64,000 nucleotides of DNA, from positions 186,001 through 250,000 of the forward strand of contig NZ_JABURY010000006.1 of assembly GCF_014489845.1 (NCBI RefSeq). Reading direction: 5' to 3'. Below are positions 27,452 to 36,454 of this stretch, piece after piece. This DNA comes from Frischella japonica (GTDB lineage: Bacteria > Pseudomonadota > Gammaproteobacteria > Enterobacterales > Orbaceae). How positions within the stretch are numbered: position 1 is the stretch's first letter; each line of letters starts with the position of its first letter. The notes under the pieces are model-generated. The model was not told the origin of the DNA, made no database searches, and saw only the letters and a list, made by a program, of their open reading frames with translations. The position numbers were made by a program, and so were the translations under genes.

Positions 27452-28405
27452 ATGGAAATGATCCATGCTACCGATCTCAAAACCATCTTTCATTCAAAAC
27501 GTGCCAACATTTATTACCTAGAGCATTGCCGTGTATTGGTTAATGGTGGGCGCGTTGAGTATGTTACCGATCAGGGGCAACAATCGCTTTATTGGAATAT
27601 TCCCATTGCTAATACTACTTGTATTTTGTTAGGAACCGGTACCTCTTTGACGCAAGCGGCAGTAAGAGAGCTTTCCCGCGCTGGCGTGATGATTGGGTTT
27701 TGTGGTGGTGGTGGAACGCCACTTTTTTCCTCTACCGAAGTTGAGTTTGCGTGTCAGTTTTTCTCTCCTCAAAGTGAATATCGTGCAACGGAATACCTAC
27801 AACGTTGGTGTCAATTTTGGTTTGACGATGAACGTAGATTGCAAGCGGCTAAAATGTTGCAACAAAGTCGCCTTGAAATCATTCGCGAGTGTTGGTCAAA
27901 GTTTGATTGGGCGATTGATCAAAGTCAATTAGACAGTATTATAAATGATGCAATAACGCAATTTGATAATATAAATAACAGTCAAGCATTGCTCGCAGCA
28001 GAAGGGCGTTTAAGTAAAACATTGTATGGTATGGCGAATCAATTAACGTTAAGCGATAATAAATTTAAACGTGAACAAGGTACCCGTGGTAAAAGCTATG
28101 ATCCGGCTAACCAATTTTTAGATCATGGCAACTACTTAGCTTATGGGCTTGGCGCAACCGCTTGTTGGGTGTTAGGATTACCGCATGGATTGGCGATTTT
28201 GCATGGTAAAACTCGGCGTGGTGGCTTGGTGTTTGATGCCGCTGATATTATTAAAGATGGCATAGTCTTACCGCAAGCTTTTTTGTCTGCAAAGCAAGGC
28301 GACAGTGAAAAAGCGTTTCGGCAAGCATGCATTTCACAATTTGCTCAGCTAGGCGCGTTAGATCGAATAATTGATACATTAAAACAGATAGCAGAAAAAG
28401 CATGA
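27452..28405 (+). CDS. cas1: Type I-F CRISPR integrase Cas1
   Basis: The 317-residue Cas1 of subtype I-F, which with the Cas2 part of Cas2-3 inserts new spacers. The N-terminus (DLKTIFHSKRANIYYLEHCR, VLVNGGRVEYVT) and CGGGGTPLFS are subtype-specific. Active-site residues are visible: Glu184 in AAEGRLSKTLYG, His251 in AILHGKTRRGG and Asp262/Asp265 in VFDAADIIKDG. The stop codon overlaps the cas2-3 start by 4 bp. No ribosome site of strength is seen, but the N-terminus matches the family from the ATG at 27452. Confidence 0.98.
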   Translation: MEMIHATDLKTIFHSKRANIYYLEHCRVLVNGGRVEYVTDQGQQSLYWNIPIANTTCILLGTGTSLTQAAVRELSRAGVMIGFCGGGGTPLFSSTEVEFACQFFSPQSEYRATEYLQRWCQFWFDDERRLQAAKMLQQSRLEIIRECWSKFDWAIDQSQLDSIINDAITQFDNINNSQALLAAEGRLSKTLYGMANQLTLSDNKFKREQGTRGKSYDPANQFLDHGNYLAYGLGATACWVLGLPHGLAILHGKTRRGGLVFDAADIIKDGIVLPQAFLSAKQGDSEKAFRQACISQFAQLGALDRIIDTLKQIAEKA

Positions 28406-31400
28406 ATATTTTATTAGTAAGCCAATGTAAAAAACGGGCATTAACCGAAACCAGACGAATTATTGATCAGTTTGCTGAGCGTTGTGGTGAACGGACATGG
28501 CAAACAGCAATGACCGAAGATGGATTACAAACCTTATATAAATTGTTGCGCAAAACGGCTCGCAAAAATACAGCCGTTGCTTGTTATTGGACTCATGGTA
28601 AAAATTTGACCGATCTTCTATGGATTGTTGGCGATCGTAGTCAATTTAATCAGCAAGGTCGAGTACCGACTAATCGTACTAAACGCAATATATTACAAAG
28701 TGGTAATGAAAGTAGTTGGCATTATGCAACAACGATTCAATTAATCACAACGATTGCCGGTTTATTACATGATCTTGGTAAAGCGACTATTGGTTTTCAA
28801 TCTAAATTACGCGCAACAGAGAAAGTGGCTGGCGATCCATACCGTCATGAATGGATTTCGTTACAATTATTTTTATTAATGATTCAAGACTGCTCAACAG
28901 ATCAAGCTGTTTTTGAACGTTTGGCAAATTTTTCTCAATATCAGCAGCAATACCCCAATTGGTATCAAAAACTTAACAAAACTGAAAAAACCGATCTGAT
29001 GCAGTGGCCTTTATTAACACAGTGGATAGCTTGGTTGATTGTATCGCATCACCGAATGCCATTTTTAATTGATTCATTAAATGGTGATAAAAATAAGAAA
29101 CAAACCAGAGATTTATATATTTCAGGTTTAAAAACAACCAGTTTTTATAAAACCCTTACCGCTGTTGAAAAATGGGTAAAAAATAGTTTTAGCCAACATC
29201 CTTCGCCTAATCAGTTTTGGCAACTTAAAAGCGATATAACGTTAAGTCAAGCATGGTTAAAAAAACTCAGCCGTTATGCTAATAAGGCGCTAACTCATCC
29301 ACCTTTAATGCAATTAACGAATATTGATGCCTTTTTATTGCATATGTCGCGTTTAAGCCTAATGGTGGCAGATCACAATTATTCAAGTTTATCTTTATCG
29401 AATGAAGAAGCAGATGAAAATCATGAAATTCTGATTGCTAACACTAATTATCTTAAAAAGGCGAAACAGTGTTTAGATGATCACCTTATTGGTGTTGCCA
29501 ATCTTTCTGCGCGTTTTGCGCGTTTACTACCGAAAATGGTTGATGAATTGCCAGCCATTAATCAACATAAACCTTTTACCAAACGGACGACTATCGATCG
29601 ATTTCAATGGCAAAATCATGCTTATGATATCGCTAAGCATTATCAATCATTAAGCGATGAACAAGGCTTTTTTGGTGTAAATATGGCATCCACTGGTTGC
29701 GGTAAAACGCTTGCCAATGGTCGAATTATGTATGCACTGGCGAATCCTAAACGTGGCGTTAGATTTACCATTGCCTTAGGTTTACGTGTTTTAACCTTGC
29801 AAACTGGTAAAGCGCTGCGAGAAAAACTACAGCTTGGCGATGAACATTTAGCGATCTTAGTTGGCGGGCGAGCAACGCAAACGTTATTTGAGTTAGAGAA
29901 TGAAGAAAAGTTACAAAAATCAAATTTAGAACAGCAGAGTATCTCAAAAGATAATTTAGAGCAAGAGGGTAGCGAATCGATAGAATCATTGGTCGATGAC
30001 TATGTTGATGTGGCAGAAAGTGGTATTGCGGATAGTGAATTAGGCACAATTGTTGAAAATAGCAAAGCTCGTCAACTAATTTATGCGCCGATTGTTACAT
30101 GTACTATTGATCATATTATTCAAGCCAGCGAATGCATACGAGGTGGCAAATATATTGCGCCGACCTTAAGGTTACTTACCTCAGATTTGATTTTAGATGA
30201 GCCTGATGATTTTGACCAAAATGACTTGCCAGCTTTGGCGCGGCTCGTTCATTTAGCCGGACTTTATGGGAGTAAAGTGTTATTGTCATCGGCAACTTTA
30301 ACGCCTGATTTAATTGCGGGTTTATTTGCGGCTTATCAAGCGGGACGAAAAATATGGAATCAAAACCATCAACGTAATAATGATTCGATCGTCTGTGGTT
30401 GGTTTGATGAGTATCAGCAATCAATTACGCAAATTTCAGATAATGCGGCATTTAGCCAACAACATCAGCTATTTGTTACTGAGCGCATTAATGAACTTGC
30501 TAAGGGCGAAGTGCGTCGTCAAGGACATATTTTAGAATTATTGGATTACCAGTATAAGAAACCAGAAAATGAAAAATTAAATTATGACTTACTAGCTAGT
30601 CAATTATTGAAACAAGCTTATCAATTTCATAAAAATTTTCATCAGACAAATATAAATTTCCAGAAAAAAATTAGTATAGGTTTAATACGCTTTGCTCATA
30701 CTGAAGATTTAATTGCCTTAACTAAACAGATTTATCAGCAAACTAAAATTCCTAAAAATACAGTATTTCATATTGTCGATTATCATGCTAGACAGTTATT
30801 ATTATTGCGTAACCAATTAGAGCAAAAGTTAGATAGAATTTTAAATCGTACTGATCCAAAAGCAATTTTTAAGCAACCAGAAATTATTGATGCGATCAAA
30901 GATAGTGAGCAAAAAAATCATATTTTTATTGTGATAGGTACGCCAGTAACCGAAGTCGGGCGAGACCATGATTACGATTGGGCCATTATTGAACCGTCAT
31001 CAATGCGTTCAATTATACAGTTAGTTGGTCGAGTATGGCGCCATCGCCCCAATAAAGTTGCTAAAAGCCCTAATGTTGCTATTTTAGGCAGTAATATTGA
31101 ATCAATTAAGCAGGGTGTGAACTATGGTGTCGGTTCAGCGTGTTTTTGTAAGCCTGGTTTTGAACAAAAACCTTTTTTACTTACGACACATCAAACCAAT
31201 AAATTAATACCGCAACAACAATTAGCAAATATTGATGCTACACCACGCATAACTAATTCAACACAAGATGAGTTTACCCTTGCCGAATTGGAGCATAAAG
31301 TGATGGCACATCTATTTGCGCTTAATGCACGAAATAGTAATTATGTTACGAGTTATTGGCAACCCGATTTAGCGCATCATCATTGTTCGCATTTACAATT

Positions 31401-31758
31401 AATTTCACCTTTTAGAATGCAAAATCATCAAGAAGATGAATTTATTTGCCAGCTTGATGAAGAGGGTGATTATTCGTTTAGCTATGCAGAGATTGCTTGG
31501 CAAACACCCAATGAACTTTGCCTAGATACGCAAAACAATCTAATTTCATATGATGACAGTTGGATATTCGATCATCCGTATATTCAACCTTGGTTAACTA
31601 ATACGGTGCAACAAGCGCTAGAAAAATTGGCAGACCATTTTCCCAATAAAAATCAATATCGATTAGCTAATGAATTTTGTAGCGTTACCTTAAACAGTCA
31701 ACATCGCTGGTATTTCCACCCATATTTTGGGTTTTATCAGATTAAAAATAGTGGTTAG
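28402..31758 (+). CDS. cas3: Type I-F Cas2-Cas3 fusion nuclease-helicase
   Basis: A 1118-residue fusion typical of subtype I-F. Residues about 1-95 are the Cas2-like part (MNILLVSQCKKRALTETRRI). The HD nuclease follows with HDLGK at 123-127, HEW near 150 and SHHRMPF near 215. The SF2 helicase has Walker A STGCGKT (Lys435), LDEPDD near 600 as the DExD box, SSATLTP (motif III), and motif VI as QLVGRVWRHR. It is recruited by the Csy complex to degrade target DNA and joins Cas1 for adaptation. It starts inside the last codon of cas1 (ATGA) and is intact. Confidence 0.98.
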   Translation: MNILLVSQCKKRALTETRRIIDQFAERCGERTWQTAMTEDGLQTLYKLLRKTARKNTAVACYWTHGKNLTDLLWIVGDRSQFNQQGRVPTNRTKRNILQSGNESSWHYATTIQLITTIAGLLHDLGKATIGFQSKLRATEKVAGDPYRHEWISLQLFLLMIQDCSTDQAVFERLANFSQYQQQYPNWYQKLNKTEKTDLMQWPLLTQWIAWLIVSHHRMPFLIDSLNGDKNKKQTRDLYISGLKTTSFYKTLTAVEKWVKNSFSQHPSPNQFWQLKSDITLSQAWLKKLSRYANKALTHPPLMQLTNIDAFLLHMSRLSLMVADHNYSSLSLSNEEADENHEILIANTNYLKKAKQCLDDHLIGVANLSARFARLLPKMVDELPAINQHKPFTKRTTIDRFQWQNHAYDIAKHYQSLSDEQGFFGVNMASTGCGKTLANGRIMYALANPKRGVRFTIALGLRVLTLQTGKALREKLQLGDEHLAILVGGRATQTLFELENEEKLQKSNLEQQSISKDNLEQEGSESIESLVDDYVDVAESGIADSELGTIVENSKARQLIYAPIVTCTIDHIIQASECIRGGKYIAPTLRLLTSDLILDEPDDFDQNDLPALARLVHLAGLYGSKVLLSSATLTPDLIAGLFAAYQAGRKIWNQNHQRNNDSIVCGWFDEYQQSITQISDNAAFSQQHQLFVTERINELAKGEVRRQGHILELLDYQYKKPENEKLNYDLLASQLLKQAYQFHKNFHQTNINFQKKISIGLIRFAHTEDLIALTKQIYQQTKIPKNTVFHIVDYHARQLLLLRNQLEQKLDRILNRTDPKAIFKQPEIIDAIKDSEQKNHIFIVIGTPVTEVGRDHDYDWAIIEPSSMRSIIQLVGRVWRHRPNKVAKSPNVAILGSNIESIKQGVNYGVGSACFCKPGFEQKPFLLTTHQTNKLIPQQQLANIDATPRITNSTQDEFTLAELEHKVMAHLFALNARNSNYVTSYWQPDLAHHHCSHLQLISPFRMQNHQEDEFICQLDEEGDYSFSYAEIAWQTPNELCLDTQNNLISYDDSWIFDHPYIQPWLTNTVQQALEKLADHFPNKNQYRLANEFCSVTLNSQHRWYFHPYFGFYQIKNSG

Positions 31759-31819: not shown

Positions 31820-31848
31820 TAGATATAAATAGATAATTAAACTATACT
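31820..31848 (+). promoter_or_regulatory. Predicted promoter of the mini-CRISPR guide RNA
   Basis: TAGATA at 31820-31825 (four of six -35 positions) and TATACT at 31843-31848 (five of six -10 positions) are 17 bp apart. Transcription would start near 31855, at the first degenerate repeat, as expected for a short guide RNA made from its own promoter rather than from a long leader. Confidence 0.55.
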
Positions 31849-31851
31849 TGC

Positions 31852-31943
31852 ATTGACTGCCGAACAGGTAGCTTAGAAATATGATTGTTTGTTCAAATTT
31901 ATTAGAAGTAAGATAGTTTACCGCCGTGTAGGCGGTTTTTATT
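31852..31943 (+). CRISPR. Degenerate two-repeat mini-CRISPR (crRNA-like guide, CreA/CreR type)
   Basis: Two repeat-like units flank one 36-nt spacer (31880-31915). Unit A, 31852-31879, matches the CRISPR2 repeat at 22 of 28 positions; its Csy4 stem (CTGCC/GGTAG) is kept with one G-U pair and its 3' handle is CTTAGAAA. Unit B, 31916-31943, matches at 20 of 28; its stem (CCGCC/GGCGG) differs from the array stem by a paired T-to-C and A-to-G change, so pairing is conserved. Unit B runs into TTTTT and could also end transcription. The spacer matches 31961-31984 next to a CC PAM (separate entry). It is outside the main arrays and has no array leader. I infer a stable guide for Csy-mediated repression in cis. 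Confidence 0.85.
31926..31940 (+). terminator. Possible terminator formed by mini-CRISPR repeat B
   Basis: The repeat B hairpin (CCGCC, loop GTGTA, GGCGG, starting at 31921) ends directly in a T5 tract. This could end both the guide RNA and read-through from cas2-3. The stem is short for a terminator (five to six bp) but entirely G-C. Confidence 0.5.
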
Positions 31944-31956
31944 TCTTTATTTATTT

Positions 31957-31992
31957 CCCCTATGACTGTATATTCAGATTTATTTTTTTCTA
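31957..31992 (+). promoter_or_regulatory. Self-target of the mini-CRISPR spacer with CC PAM
   Basis: CCCC at 31957-31960 supplies the type I-F PAM (CC, 5' of the protospacer). From 31961 the sequence matches the mini-CRISPR spacer at positions 1-5, 7-9, 11, 13-16 and 18-24, with mismatches at 6, 10, 12 and 17; beyond 24 identity is lost. The Csy seed (1-5, 7-8) is perfect, and positions 6 and 12 are those flipped out of pairing in type I complexes. A TATATT -10-like element (31969-31974) lies inside the match. Partial pairing of this kind is expected to allow binding without Cas2-3 cleavage. Confidence 0.8.
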
Positions 31993-32020
31993 TTTTTTTT
32001 GATAAAAAATGATGACAAAC

Positions 32021-32048
32021 TTGTAATTTTTATTTTTTTGGTTAAAAT
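32021..32048 (+). promoter_or_regulatory. Predicted promoter of the 107-aa gene / csy operon
   Basis: TTGTAA at 32021-32026 and TAAAAT at 32043-32048 are 16 bp apart. It lies 29 bp beyond the end of a 32-nt R-loop on the self-target; the alternative TATATT at 31969 would be covered directly. Which one is used cannot be told from sequence. Confidence 0.4.
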
Positions 32049-32084
32049 ATAAAAAAACCCCAAATGCGCCAACATCTGAGGTTT
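32048..32084 (-). terminator. Hairpin with T-run on the minus strand upstream of the 107-aa gene
   Basis: Arms 32055-32066 and 32073-32084 enclose CGCCAA. On the minus strand all 12 positions pair (two G-U) and a T7 run follows; on the plus strand the same positions give two C-A mismatches. The asymmetry suggests the working RNA, if any, is antisense. Confidence 0.45.
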
Positions 32085-32121: not shown

Positions 32122-32445
32122 ATGAATAATGATAAATTATACATAATGAAAAATCAAATTCCGACTGATAAGTTAGTGTTAAATAAATTGCAAAATTTTG
32201 CAATAAGCACTTTGGCTGCTAATGATGAGTCTGTAATTTTTTTGCCGGAATCGGTTGAATACTTTTCAATTACAGAACTAATGAAAATATTAAATATTTC
32301 GACAACCAAAGAAATCGAATATTTAATTAAAAAATTAGAACTTAATCAACCTAAGTACCGATATCTTAATGCTACTAATAAGTGGCTGTATAGCAATAAA
32401 GCACTTAATTTATTAGCGTTATATATAAGATTTAAAGCATCATAA
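32122..32445 (+). CDS. Hypothetical 107-aa protein inside the cas locus, downstream of the guide target
   Basis: A small soluble protein I do not recognise. AAAAAGGAG ends 9 bp before the ATG at 32122; an in-frame TTG at 32083 was rejected because it lies upstream of this ribosome site. The middle (FSITELMKILNISTTKEIEYLIKKLE) reads as two helices around a turn and may be a helix-turn-helix; a basic, aromatic tail follows (KYRYLNATNKWLY, LYIRFKAS). It is not part of the standard I-F gene set. It sits between the self-target of the mini-CRISPR and an intrinsic terminator, so it is the gene most directly controlled by the guide. It may be a toxin in a CreTA-like module, or a regulator of csy genes. 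Either role is inference. Confidence 0.75.
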   Translation: MNNDKLYIMKNQIPTDKLVLNKLQNFAISTLAANDESVIFLPESVEYFSITELMKILNISTTKEIEYLIKKLELNQPKYRYLNATNKWLYSNKALNLLALYIRFKAS

Positions 32446-32457
32446 TTATGATTATTA

Positions 32458-32484
32458 AGGTCCATAATTTTTATGGACTTTTTT
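32458..32484 (+). terminator. Terminator or attenuator between the 107-aa gene and csy1
   Basis: GTCCATAA (32460-32467), a TTT loop and TTATGGAC (32471-32478) form an 8-bp stem followed by six T. Only 30 bp remain before the csy1 start, too little for a full promoter, so csy1 needs read-through or a promoter within the small gene. Confidence 0.75.
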
Positions 32485-32514: not shown

Positions 32515-33894
32515 ATGGAAGATATTTCTTGGCAAGATATAAGAAAGGTTATTGTCGACTTTCTTCAGCAGCGGCTTACTAATAATGCTAATTATAAAAG
32601 TGAAGTGACAAAACTGGATAAAGCTAAGCAAGCAAATGATGTATCGGCAATTAATGAATCTCAACAAAAAATTAATGATTTAGTTAAACGATTCGATTTT
32701 GAAACTTGGATGGAAGATGCCGCAACCAGAAGAATTTCATGGATTACTATTGGAAGCCATATTAGCCGGGGTATTCACCCATCTAGCCCAGCTGATGATG
32801 TTAATTATTTTGCACAAAATCAACCGGTTACGTCAAATTATGTGTCGTCAGCGACACCATCAACTTTAAGTATTAATTGTTCTGGAAATGCTGCGGCACT
32901 TGATATCTTTTCTTTACTTAATCAGTTTGTAAAAGATGATTTAACATTATTGCAATTAATTATACAAAATCATCCTGCTATTTTGCCGGCGTTATCGGAT
33001 GATGAGCAAAAGGCAGCGGTTTATTTAGCTAATTTAAAAAAAGCGATTTTTAATAATTTTGATAATCCAAAAGCATCAGAACTTAATAAACAATTATATT
33101 GGCCAAATAGTCAAGATACTTATCTTTCAGGGGTTGATAATCATTACCGTCTGTTAATTCCGTTGTATCCATCATCATTATGTCACTTGGTTTATCAAAA
33201 AGTACAAACAAGATTTTCTGACGAGAATAAAAAGGCTCGAGAACAAAGAAGAATCAAAGGGATTGAACATCAATCTTATTTTTCGTTTCATCACTTAGCC
33301 GTGGTTAAGTTGGGGGGCAGCAATCCACAAGGTGTTAGTCAATTAACCTGTAATCAAGGTGGACGCAATTTTTTATTACCGTCAATGCCGCCTAAATTTG
33401 AAAAATCCCCTTTTCCAACAATTACTAAGGCGCAAGAAACCATTTTCACAAATTCAATGCAATATTTTTGTCGCTTTGGCTTTAGATTGTTGTTTGATAT
33501 GGTTCAAGCGCCCAAAAACAATGTTGAAGAGCGTGATAATCGCAAAGATGCTTTTGCCGTTATTTTATCGTTATTACTTAAATATGCCAGACACATTCAA
33601 AAAACCATGCCGGCGGGCTGGAGTCGTGATTACTCGCTCAAATTTAATCAAAAATTATGGTTAGATCCAAAGCGGTCTAATTTAGGCGGTGAGCAAGATT
33701 TTAAACAAAAGTATGATAAAGGTGAATGGATAGTTGAACTAGAAAAAGACTTTGCTTTTTGGATCCAAAATGCTTTAGTAAAAAAATTTGAAAATATTCA
33801 ACAGCAATTTAGTGATCCGGAATTTATGGAGTGGCGTAAAGAATTAAGCGCCGCTGTCAAAGCAAGTCAGCGTAAAAAGGAGGGGATCTTTTAA
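32515..33894 (+). CDS. csy1: Type I-F Cascade large subunit Csy1 (Cas8f)
   Basis: The 459-residue Cas8f binds the 5' handle of the crRNA with Csy2 and reads the CC PAM. Features of the family visible here are RGIHPSSPADDVNYFAQNQ near residues 83-101, DVASALDIFSLL-like AALDIFSLLNQFV, and GGSNPQGVSQLTCNQGGRNFLLPSMPP near 265-290, the conserved glycine-rich core, plus MPAGWSRDYSLKFNQKLWLDP. AAGGAGG precedes the ATG. The stop codon overlaps the csy2 start (TAATG). The protein is intact and of usual length. Confidence 0.97.
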   Translation: MEDISWQDIRKVIVDFLQQRLTNNANYKSEVTKLDKAKQANDVSAINESQQKINDLVKRFDFETWMEDAATRRISWITIGSHISRGIHPSSPADDVNYFAQNQPVTSNYVSSATPSTLSINCSGNAAALDIFSLLNQFVKDDLTLLQLIIQNHPAILPALSDDEQKAAVYLANLKKAIFNNFDNPKASELNKQLYWPNSQDTYLSGVDNHYRLLIPLYPSSLCHLVYQKVQTRFSDENKKAREQRRIKGIEHQSYFSFHHLAVVKLGGSNPQGVSQLTCNQGGRNFLLPSMPPKFEKSPFPTITKAQETIFTNSMQYFCRFGFRLLFDMVQAPKNNVEERDNRKDAFAVILSLLLKYARHIQKTMPAGWSRDYSLKFNQKLWLDPKRSNLGGEQDFKQKYDKGEWIVELEKDFAFWIQNALVKKFENIQQQFSDPEFMEWRKELSAAVKASQRKKEGIF

Positions 33895-34817
33895 TGGAAA
33901 CATTAAATTACTATCTGTTTTTTGATCATGTCAAAATTCATAATGCTAATGCGATATCCAGCCCATTAACCTACGGATTTCCCGCTATTTCGGGTTTTGT
34001 TGGTGCTATTCATGCATTAAACCGTAAAATTGAATCGACTGATCCTATTTATTTAGATGGAGTATTGATTGCTTGCCATGAGTGTGATGTACAAGTTTAT
34101 CGACCTAATGATTATAGTGATTATACTTTTCGATTAACCCGCAATCCAGTGGCTAAAAATGGTGATACCCGCGCAATTATCGAAGAGGGACGAGTGCATC
34201 TTGATGTTTCATTGCTGATTGAAGTAAAAATAGAAAATTTTGAAGCACTTTATGATGACGATCAAAAGAATGAATTTATTAATCAGATGAAACAAAAACT
34301 GTACCAACAGCGCATTGCTGGCGGTCATGTGTTAGAAATTGGTGATGCAAAATTAATTCCCTCTGATGCATCAGACGAAACATTAGCAAATTTGTTATTA
34401 CCTGCTTTTGTATTAGTTGAAGCACAGCAAGATCTGCAAGAGATCACAGCTGAGTTACAACAACAAGATCCTAATGCAACCGCGCTTGATGCTTTAATCG
34501 AAACAGCGATGTTGCATCATCATCCACAAGAGAAAGAACACTGGCAAACCACATCAGTCAAACAGGGGCGAGGTTGGTTAGTCCCGATACCATTAGGGTA
34601 TCAAGCAATATCACCGTTATTTGCTGCTGGTAAGTTGCAAGAAGCTCGGAGTAATGACCATCAATCACAATTTGTTGAATGTATTTATGGACTGGGTAAA
34701 TGGGTATTTCCATTGCGCTTAAAGGAAAACTTATCACAAGCGTTTTGGCGCTATCAATGCAGTACATTGCAATCAAATGGTGCAGAGATTTACATCATTA
34801 ATCAAAAAAATAATTAA
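33894..34817 (+). CDS. csy2: Type I-F Cascade subunit Csy2 (Cas5f)
   Basis: The 307-residue Cas5f, which forms a heterodimer with Csy1 at the crRNA 5' end. The N-terminal RAMP-like fold begins YYLFFDHVKIHNANAISSPLTYGFPA, with GFVGAIHALNRK as the family signature. GRGWLVPIPLGYQAISPL near residue 222 and FVECIYGLGKWVFPLRL near 262 are also characteristic. It overlaps csy1 by one base, so the two are translationally coupled, and csy3 follows after 33 bp. Confidence 0.97.
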   Translation: METLNYYLFFDHVKIHNANAISSPLTYGFPAISGFVGAIHALNRKIESTDPIYLDGVLIACHECDVQVYRPNDYSDYTFRLTRNPVAKNGDTRAIIEEGRVHLDVSLLIEVKIENFEALYDDDQKNEFINQMKQKLYQQRIAGGHVLEIGDAKLIPSDASDETLANLLLPAFVLVEAQQDLQEITAELQQQDPNATALDALIETAMLHHHPQEKEHWQTTSVKQGRGWLVPIPLGYQAISPLFAAGKLQEARSNDHQSQFVECIYGLGKWVFPLRLKENLSQAFWRYQCSTLQSNGAEIYIINQKNN

Positions 34818-34850
34818 ATAATTTTAAAGTTATACAATAAGGAATTTATT

Positions 34851-35879
34851 ATGAGTAAAAGTAAAATCACTACCGCATCCGTTTTAGCTTTTGAACGTAG
34901 TTTTGATATTTCTGATGCTGTTTTTTCACAGCCAAGTTCTGCGAATCCTAAAATATTATCTCCAATTCGATTAACCGAAAAATCAGTACGCGGAACCATT
35001 TCGAATCGCCTTAAAAATGCCATTGCTAGCGATCCCGCTAAATTAGATGCCGAAATTCAAAAAGCCAATTTACAAACCGTCGATGTTGCGGCCTTAGATG
35101 CCGATAAAGATACTTTAGTGGTAACATGGAGCTGTAAAGTGTTACCTTTTACCGGTAAACCATCAGTATGTAATGATGTTGAATATCAAGAACAGTTAAC
35201 AACGACAACTCAAGAATATATTAAAGATGTTGGCTTAAAAGCGTTAGCAAAACGATATGCCATTAATATTTTAAATGGTCGTTGGTTGTGGCGAAACCGT
35301 ATGGCAGCCGAGCAAATTAATATTATCGTGAGTTATCAAGCGCACAATGATAAAGATGAGGCTAAGATAATTGACGTTGCTAACGTTGATGCCAAAAATT
35401 ATCAGCTTAACAGTTTTGATTATGATAATAAATCTGTTCAAGCATTGACTGATCTTATTGAAGCAGGATTAGCCAATAAAAAATTTGTGATCTTTGATGT
35501 TACCGCAACACTAAAAATGGGCTTAGGACAAGAAGTTTACCCATCACAAGAATTAATTTTAGATACTGGTAAAGAAAAAAGCAAAGTGCTTTATGGCAAA
35601 AATGGTCAAGCAGCGATGCATTCTCAAAAAGTCAGTAATGCAATTCGTACTATCGATACCTGGTATGATGAAAAAGCGGAATTTCCAATTGCGATTGAAC
35701 CTTATGGTTCGGTAACCACTATGGGGCATGCTTTCCGCCAACCTAAACAAAAAATAGATTTTTATACTTTGTTTGATAACTGGGTTTTAAAAGGTGAGCA
35801 GCCAAGTTTGGAACAACAACATTATGTGATTGCCGTATTAATTCGTGGTGGTGTCTTTGGGGCGAGTGGTAAGGAGTAA
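34851..35879 (+). CDS. csy3: Type I-F Cascade backbone Csy3 (Cas7f)
   Basis: The 342-residue Cas7f, present in six copies along the 32-nt spacer in the standard complex, with a thumb that displaces every sixth base. Family features: TASVLAFERSFDISDAVFS at the N-terminus, KSVRGTISNRLK, RYAINILNGRWLWRNRM near 145-160, LKMGLGQEVYPSQE and KVLYGKNGQAAMHSQKVSNAIRTIDTWY. AAGGAATTTATT precedes the ATG. csy4 follows after 5 bp. A 36-nt spacer as in the mini-CRISPR could be held by extra Csy3 copies. Confidence 0.97.
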   Translation: MSKSKITTASVLAFERSFDISDAVFSQPSSANPKILSPIRLTEKSVRGTISNRLKNAIASDPAKLDAEIQKANLQTVDVAALDADKDTLVVTWSCKVLPFTGKPSVCNDVEYQEQLTTTTQEYIKDVGLKALAKRYAINILNGRWLWRNRMAAEQINIIVSYQAHNDKDEAKIIDVANVDAKNYQLNSFDYDNKSVQALTDLIEAGLANKKFVIFDVTATLKMGLGQEVYPSQELILDTGKEKSKVLYGKNGQAAMHSQKVSNAIRTIDTWYDEKAEFPIAIEPYGSVTTMGHAFRQPKQKIDFYTLFDNWVLKGEQPSLEQQHYVIAVLIRGGVFGASGKE

Positions 35880-35884
35880 GCAAT

Positions 35885-36454
35885 ATGCATACACACTATT
35901 TTGAACTGCGCGCCATACCACAAATTGAGATAACTGAAGTGCAGGTGATTAATCAAGTGATGCAAAAACTGCATCAAGTCTTGGTTAATTTTCAAGGTAA
36001 TATTGGTATTAGTTTTCCTTGTTATAATGTGCGCCGAACACTAGGTGGAATTATTCGCATTTTTGGTACTGAAGCCGAGTTACAGGAATTTAAAAGTGCG
36101 CTACAGCAACAGGCTGCCATTGCTGACTATGTATTGATTCTACCAATCACAGCCATACCAACTGAAGTTAAGGGCTATTTACGTTTAATTCGGGTTAATC
36201 CTAAAGGACAAAGTGCATTAAGACGTGCTGAAAAACGCTTAACCGCTCAGGGTAAATGGTCTAGCGATGTACAACAAAAAATGATAGAAAAATGGGGAAG
36301 CATTAATTTAACCTATCCTCATCTACATATAGATAGTCAAAGCACAGGTCAGCGCTTTATTATGTGGTTAAAGCAAGAAAGCGTTGCCGAGCCTGTAAAA
36401 GGTACATTTAATAGCTATGGACTCAGTAAAATAGCAACAGTTCCTTATTTTTAA
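35885..36454 (+). CDS. csy4: Type I-F crRNA endonuclease Csy4 (Cas6f)
   Basis: The 189-residue Csy4 cuts pre-crRNA after G20 of the repeat hairpin and stays bound. The general-base His is His30 in KLHQVLV (His29 in Pseudomonas), the catalytic Ser lies in HIDSQSTGQRF (Ser151/153), and Tyr178 in FNSYGLSK is the third conserved residue. The arginine-rich helix (ALRRAEKRL, about 111-119) that grips the RNA stem is present. It is the last gene of the csy operon; the CRISPR1 leader starts directly at its stop codon. Confidence 0.97.
   Translation: MHTHYFELRAIPQIEITEVQVINQVMQKLHQVLVNFQGNIGISFPCYNVRRTLGGIIRIFGTEAELQEFKSALQQQAAIADYVLILPITAIPTEVKGYLRLIRVNPKGQSALRRAEKRLTAQGKWSSDVQQKMIEKWGSINLTYPHLHIDSQSTGQRFIMWLKQESVAEPVKGTFNSYGLSKIATVPYF

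Follow-up and report, generated by a model that had tools for sequence, protein, structure and literature searches.

A putative CreR-type mini-array in the type I-F CRISPR-Cas locus of Frischella japonica, with a guide matching DNA in front of its own csy operon

Frischella japonica is a bee-gut type bacterium in which a tiny built-in guide adjoins the CRISPR genes. In the window (the whole stretch of 64,000 nucleotides that was analysed), which contains a complete type I-F locus with genes assigned by Pfam and NCBIfam, two degenerate repeats enclose one spacer between cas2-3 and csy1, and this spacer matches a CC-flanked sequence lying between itself and csy1. The element is very probably a regulatory mini-array of the CreR type, through which the Csy complex represses its own operon. 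Table 1 lists the features concerned.

Table 1. Features of the mini-array and of the surrounding cas locus, in positions of the window
Feature	Position	Strand	Basis and remarks
cas1	27452-28405	+	Pfam/NCBIfam; upstream of mini-array, same I-F system
cas2-3	28402-31758	+	Pfam/NCBIfam; upstream of mini-array, same I-F system
Putative guide RNA promoter, TAGATA-17-TATACT	31820-31848	+	Consensus scan; start expected approximately at R1
R1, degenerate I-F repeat with Csy4-type hairpin	31852-31879	+	22/28 identical to repeat of 43.2-kb array (hand count)
5' handle CTTAGAAA, end of R1	31872-31879	+	Sequence
Guide (spacer), 36 nt; match carried by positions 1-24	31880-31915	+	Sequence
R2, degenerate repeat	31916-31943	+	20/28 identical to repeat of 43.2-kb array (hand count)
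R2 hairpin and T tract, intrinsic-terminator-like site	31920-31936 (hairpin)	+	Terminator scan, fold
PAM, CC	31959-31960	+	Sequence; CC in 18/20 loci, CT in 2
Self-target protospacer, 32 bp	31961-31992	+	Matched up to position 24, 20/24
Putative promoter of 107-aa gene and csy operon, TTGATA-17-TGTAAT	31999-32027	+	Sequence; prediction only
107-aa protein gene	32122-32445	+	Probably MerR-like winged-helix C-terminal domain; found only beside csy1
Terminator-like hairpin and T tract, between 107-aa gene and csy1	32457-32481	+	Terminator scan
csy1-csy2-csy3-csy4 (type I-F effector)	32515-36454	+	Pfam/NCBIfam; presumed repressor and regulated operon

The repeat identities and spacer length given in the original prediction were borne out by a recount over 31852-31943. 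Rfam model CRISPR-DR4 matched both repeats at 31.2 and 22.3 bits (below its gathering score of 35), the stretch 31852-31950 folds with a z of -3.75, and R2 is without a proper handle. This arrangement, two degenerate cognate repeats round a single spacer inside a cas locus, is that of CreR RNAs and regulatory mini-arrays. The ordinary repeat arrays of the window begin at about 36.6 kb (36599) and 43.2 kb (43223), and carry clearly different I-F repeats, starting GCTCAATACC and GTTCACTGCC, respectively.

The target that had been proposed directly after CC from 31961 was found as described, with mismatches to the guide at positions 6, 10, 12 and 17 and all seven seed positions paired (7/7); as had also been foreseen, there is no similarity to speak of past position 24. 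A spacer partly complementary to DNA upstream of the effector operon, with PAM and seed kept and the mismatches distal, corresponds to the CreR pattern. When the 572 bp from R2 to csy1 were shuffled 20,000 times with dinucleotides preserved and read on both strands, a match of 20/24 with full seed and CC was obtained 0 times, the same match with any PAM once, and a match of 15/24 with seed and CC nine times; a chance origin of the guide-target match is unlikely. A second target with seed and CC was found neither before cas1 nor elsewhere in the window, and a genome search with the 24-base pattern, allowing at most 3 mismatches, returned only the guide itself and the target at 31961, with no second target elsewhere.

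A survey of the family was made in 44 genomes of Orbaceae, one per species, which were searched for csy1. The gene is present in 23, and a mini-array with its own target lies before csy1 in 20 of these 23; 19 of the loci came from a scan of oriented DNA before csy1, and the twentieth (G012), in which a contig break parts the mini-array from the csy genes while guide and target share one contig, was found by an RNA model of guide promoter and R1. This model gave one strong match per genome in 20 genomes, all of them csy1-positive, and no strong match in the 21 csy1-negative genomes (four of which are only 59-81% complete); the remaining matches, possible orphan guide units, all fell below 40 bits in a search that used stricter filters. 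Co-occurrence of csy1 and mini-array gave a Fisher p of 1e-9, uncorrected for relatedness. Three csy1-positive genomes are without a mini-array (G011, G028 and G041): in G011 the gap from cas2-3 to csy1 is 114 bp, and in G028 an ordinary array precedes csy1. The 20 loci hold 16 distinct guides, and the PAM is CC in 18 and CT in 2. In 19 loci the spacer measures between 20 and 38 nt, a variability that would be expected if interference is not the purpose.

Several loci depart from the simple arrangement. Two guide units stand in tandem in L007 and L011 (488 and 823, for L007 in turned coordinates), both matching a single target at 594, at 20/24 and 18/24. One guide faces two CC-flanked targets in L013 (907 and 941, turned) and L021 (908 and 954), 34 and 46 bp apart, an arrangement suggestive of double binding. 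Upstream of the regulatory guide in L008 (733-820, turned) and in L091 there is one more repeat, its spacer about 32 nt long, so the mini-array may still acquire spacers. In genome G017 (L025/L026) the csy1 match is broken in two (residues 1-299 and 297-459), with mini-array and target retained.

The 107-aa gene bears on what is regulated. It occurs in 15 of the 44 family genomes, in csy1-positive ones only and never more than 80 bp from csy1, and a scan of GTDB contigs for its protein gave 11 loci, all in Gilliamella, the 11 named records being all titled as such. It sits between target and csy1 in 15 of the 20 mini-array loci; in the other five (L016, L017, L018, L020 and L023) there is no such gene, and guide and target are kept, the latter 131-141 bp before csy1. 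Since these five loci exist, csy1-4 would be the common target. An AlphaFold2 model of the protein from a 12-row alignment has a mean pLDDT of 71, with residues 51-100 modelled at about 90 as helix-helix-strand-strand-helix; its top PDB matches are mostly MerR-like (RacA, BmrR, SoxR) at E values of 0.05-0.1, with none at 0.001. Pfam MerR_1 matched 2 of 12 members, at a sub-threshold E of 0.017 that is no better than unrelated weak matches such as Frataxin_Cyay (0.0087). From the predicted fold, DNA binding by this protein is likely. Family and defence profile searches gave weak matches throughout and none to a toxin family, the PADLOC ones being of two homologues to mad1 (E 0.0025 and 0.0071) and one to PRTase_III-A.

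Two models had been offered in the original prediction, of which autoregulation of the CreR type fits these observations and an addiction module fits poorly. In the latter (an addiction or alarm device like CreTA or CrePA), the guide would hold down the 107-aa gene, the product of which would be harmful if Csy were lost or inhibited; the position of the gene between target and csy1 in most mini-array loci, its restriction within the family to the neighbourhood of csy1, and the terminator-like hairpin that parts it from csy1, by which it may respond most, are in keeping with this. In CreTA and CrePA systems the target is a toxin gene promoter, whereas here guide and target persist before csy1 in the five loci where no gene intervenes, and where the gene is present its predicted fold is MerR-like and DNA-binding, with no toxin family matched. 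On account of those five loci, addiction was for the most part set aside as improbable.

The hairpin between the 107-aa gene and csy1 is found in all 15 loci that carry the gene (window, L004-L014, L019, L021 and L025), with a T-rich tail in most and with stem letters that differ among them, and is a possible attenuator of the csy operon. In the scanned stretch of the window no plus-strand promoter was listed after 32048; taken together with the hairpin, this suggests that csy1-4 probably depend on read-through, and the hairpin means that the csy genes need either read-through or an undetected promoter. A further hairpin-forming stretch (CCCCAAATG to CATCTGAGG) occupies 32055-32084 in the leader of the 107-aa gene; similar stretches occur in several loci having the gene, and it reads as a minus-strand terminator. 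A palindromic operator for the 107-aa protein was sought after the -10 box in 19 loci, and 1 of 200 shuffles was as good in 3 loci and at least 14 of 200 in the other 16. It is possible, though on balance doubtful, that control is layered, with the Csy guide setting initiation, the MerR-like and Csy-locus-specific 107-aa regulator acting on the same promoter or leader, and the hairpin before csy1 serving as an attenuator that sets the share of transcripts reaching csy1-4.

The preferred reading, repression of the csy operon by Csy itself, also depends on where the target lies relative to the promoter. Promoter calls here are consensus matches in AT-rich DNA and thus predictions: in the window the TTGATA box (31999) starts 6 bp past the end of the 32-bp protospacer, and a general promoter scan instead lists TTGTAA-16-TAAAAT at 32021-32048, with TTGATA-17-TGTAAT absent from its list. 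Across the family the predicted -35 box overlaps or nearly abuts the target in 16 of 20 loci and in 14 it begins within the 32-bp protospacer itself, overlapping it by only 1-3 bp in six of these. Measured from the first base of the protospacer, the -35 box of the top candidate begins at 15-30 bp in 12 of 19 loci; in L008 the second-ranked candidate, at 31 bp, was used (the top one being at 44), and in G012 the box was read from the sequence at about 28 bp. In the window and L004 the distance is 38-39 bp, or 6-7 bp beyond the protospacer end, and for the top candidate in L016, L017, L018 and L020 it is 64-74 bp; of these four, L016 also has an equal-scoring candidate at 21 bp and L017 a weaker one there.

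It could be supposed that the same binding has another sign or another object, Csy activating the promoter from upstream of the -35 box, or mainly road-blocking read-through from cas2-3 and the guide unit. In six loci (the window, L004 and the four with distant candidates) the protospacer does end upstream of the top-ranked -35 box, but a -35 box that starts inside the protospacer, as in the majority of loci, should hinder RNA polymerase, and R2 is already terminator-like for any read-through; such a role is very unlikely.

For the guide itself, a scan of the region gave three promoter-like sites as compared with 5.4 in shuffles, so that the call of a guide promoter is weak on its own. In the 18 loci aligned upstream of R1 (L008, with its extra repeat in between, was left out), TATACT is present in 17 and TATAAT in one, and GCTAG in 17 and TGTAG in one. 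All 17 distinct rows pair the R1 hairpin in full, and at 2 of its 5 pairs both sides have changed; in covariation score and in paired fraction it exceeds 500 of 500 shuffles, and in the count of doubly changed pairs it does not stand out (225 of 500 shuffles reach the same count). The 5-bp stem of R2 is intact in all of 19 loci and is mostly trailed by T-rich sequence, except in L016, L017, L018 and L020, so R2 could serve to end guide transcription. Conservation extends to both the promoter-like motif and the R1 hairpin.

Whether spacer and target change together among relatives was the check named in the original prediction, and they do. In a swap test of 19 loci (all but G012), each of the 19 guides matches its own region at 15-21 of 24 positions with full seed, and 14 of 342 foreign combinations reach at least 15, eight of them between identical guides and six others. 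In the nearest relative, L004, whose csy1 is 92% identical, positions 7 and 8 have changed jointly, from TG in both guide and target in the window to AC in both in L004. Of the 105 pairs that the distinct guides form, the 54 differing at no more than nine of 18 positions were used to count joint changes that kept pairing; these pairs share members and history, and the counts are not independent events. Guide differences were joint and paired in 22 of 29 cases at position 10, 18 of 28 at position 11, 13 of 17 at 14, 23 of 31 at 15 and 14 of 17 at 17; in 5 of 10 at position 9, 10 of 18 at 13 and 13 of 29 at 16; and in 5 of 29 at position 12, 4 of 37 at 18, 0 of 19 at 21 and 2 of 36 at 23.

The mismatches themselves are unevenly distributed. 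Targets had been picked by a score rewarding total matches, seed and CC, or by requiring CC with positions 1-5 and 7-8, and in L008 and G012 they were identified visually; these rules are neutral among positions 9-24, and position 6 lies outside the seed rule. Among the 16 distinct guides, mismatches number seven at position 6 and none at positions 1-5 and 7-8, the latter partly by construction because the rules reward or require the seed; there are 1 at position 9, 2 at 10, 2 at 11, 12 at 12, 1 at 13, 4 each at 14, 15 and 16, 2 at 17, 9 at 18 and 9 at 19. Positions 12 and 18 are mismatched in 21 of 32 cases versus 20 of 128 at positions 9-11 and 13-17 (Fisher p 7e-8; permutation within each pair, p 5e-5), and position 12 alone, compared with 9-11, 13 and 14 in 15 guides, gives p 3.5e-6. 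Pairing fades at position 19, which is mismatched as often as 18, so only 6 and 12 are clean cases. The bases at these sixth positions have been described as flipped out, for type I-E Cascade in the account given in PMC5965380 and for class 1 effectors in that of PMC12774636. The pattern is taken as the apparent imprint of a Cascade-type R-loop under selection.

That the element is a relic, a decaying array fragment beside a chance or recently duplicated stretch, has in its favour the degeneracy of both repeats and the defective handle of R2, but is scarcely credible and was rejected in view of the shuffles, the 16 different guides whose targets co-vary and whose mismatches fall preferentially at every sixth base, the conserved promoter motif and paired hairpin, and the flanks, which a duplication would bring along: GAAA stands before the guide (TAAA in one case), CC or CT before the target.

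The following sequence of events would account for CreR-type autoregulation. A guide transcript would start at its own promoter just upstream of R1 and end at the R2 hairpin and terminator, and Csy4 cleavage in R1 would release a crRNA-like RNA with the handle CUUAGAAA. Loaded with this guide, the Csy complex would bind the protospacer that follows CC and lies immediately before the -35 box of the csy promoter; with pairing limited to about the first 24 positions, a full R-loop and cutting by Cas2-3 would not follow, and the complex would stay on the DNA and repress transcription of the 107-aa gene and csy1-4. The negative feedback would ease when Csy is scarce, occupied by immune crRNAs or blocked by an anti-CRISPR. 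The original prediction of repression by a Csy-guide complex at the promoter before the 107-aa gene and csy1-4 is supported by the covariation, the R-loop-like mismatches and the placement of the target at the predicted csy promoter. The sequences show the anatomy, the guide-target match, the covariation, the periodic mismatches, the co-occurrence with csy1 and the closeness to a predicted promoter; transcription, processing, binding and repression, together with the sign and the physiological purpose of the latter, are inferred.

Regulatory guide arrays of this kind are already known, as CreR RNAs and as regulatory mini-arrays. Shmakov et al. 2023 reportedly described the latter, with two repeat-like sequences round a spacer partly complementary to the cas8 promoter, and a type I-F1 mini-array is said to have been shown there to act as a regulatory guide; in these respects they resemble the mini-array of the window. 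The cas-regulating CreR RNAs (Liu et al. 2023, Cell Host Microbe), as presented in portions of the reviews PMC13131331, PMC12737573 and PMC12948488, are likewise crRNA-like RNAs in a cas locus with partial complementarity to a cas promoter, by which the effector represses its own operon; they differ in that the relevant portion of PMC13131331 names types I-B, I-E and V-A, not the I-F of the present locus, and in that here, in most members, target and csy1 are separated by the 107-aa gene and a terminator-like hairpin. CreTA and CrePA, in the outlines given by PMC12737573 and PMC13131331, similarly use a crRNA-like RNA to guide the effector to a promoter by a partial match and repress it, but direct it at a toxin gene, unlike the loci here in which no gene intervenes (5/20). 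The Racr solitary repeat RNAs sketched in PMC10651486 mimic CRISPR repeats and act on Cas proteins, type I-F included, but are phage-borne inhibitors, whereas the element in the window is chromosomal and has both guide and target. Among the papers searched, a set without the full texts of Shmakov et al. 2023 and Liu et al. 2023, none combines Gilliamella, CRISPR-Cas and crRNA, and in those that were examined neither the 107-aa protein nor the terminator-like hairpin upstream of csy1 was seen described.

Outside the family, a class-wide search gave a csy1 match in 34 of 369 genomes, from which 30 loci were fetched and 29 scanned (the window's own locus being left out), and a guide-target pair was found in none of these 29 loci of other families, within the first 1,700 bases of each. 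The same rules recover 17 of the 19 family loci, both misses having the CT PAM, and the scan is blind to mini-arrays elsewhere in the genome or with another handle or PAM; as far as these sequences indicate, self-targeting by a mini-array at this position is not common to I-F systems in general. Viral contigs, in two pattern scans, gave 2 and 0 matches and no phage copy; both matches show one and the same ordinary array, its repeats regularly spaced, and one match adjoins an apparent cas2-3 gene (judged by eye).

In summary, the family offers, for a single effector, 16 natural guides that co-evolve with their targets, together with a small uncharacterised protein tied to the same csy operon. 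The guides suggest that silencing by the I-F complex in the cell needs positions 1-5, 7-11, 13 and 17, less so 14-16, and that the complex ignores positions 6 and 12 and perhaps 18. It would further be predicted that csy expression in these gut symbionts rises in the presence of anti-CRISPRs or when immune crRNAs are in large excess.
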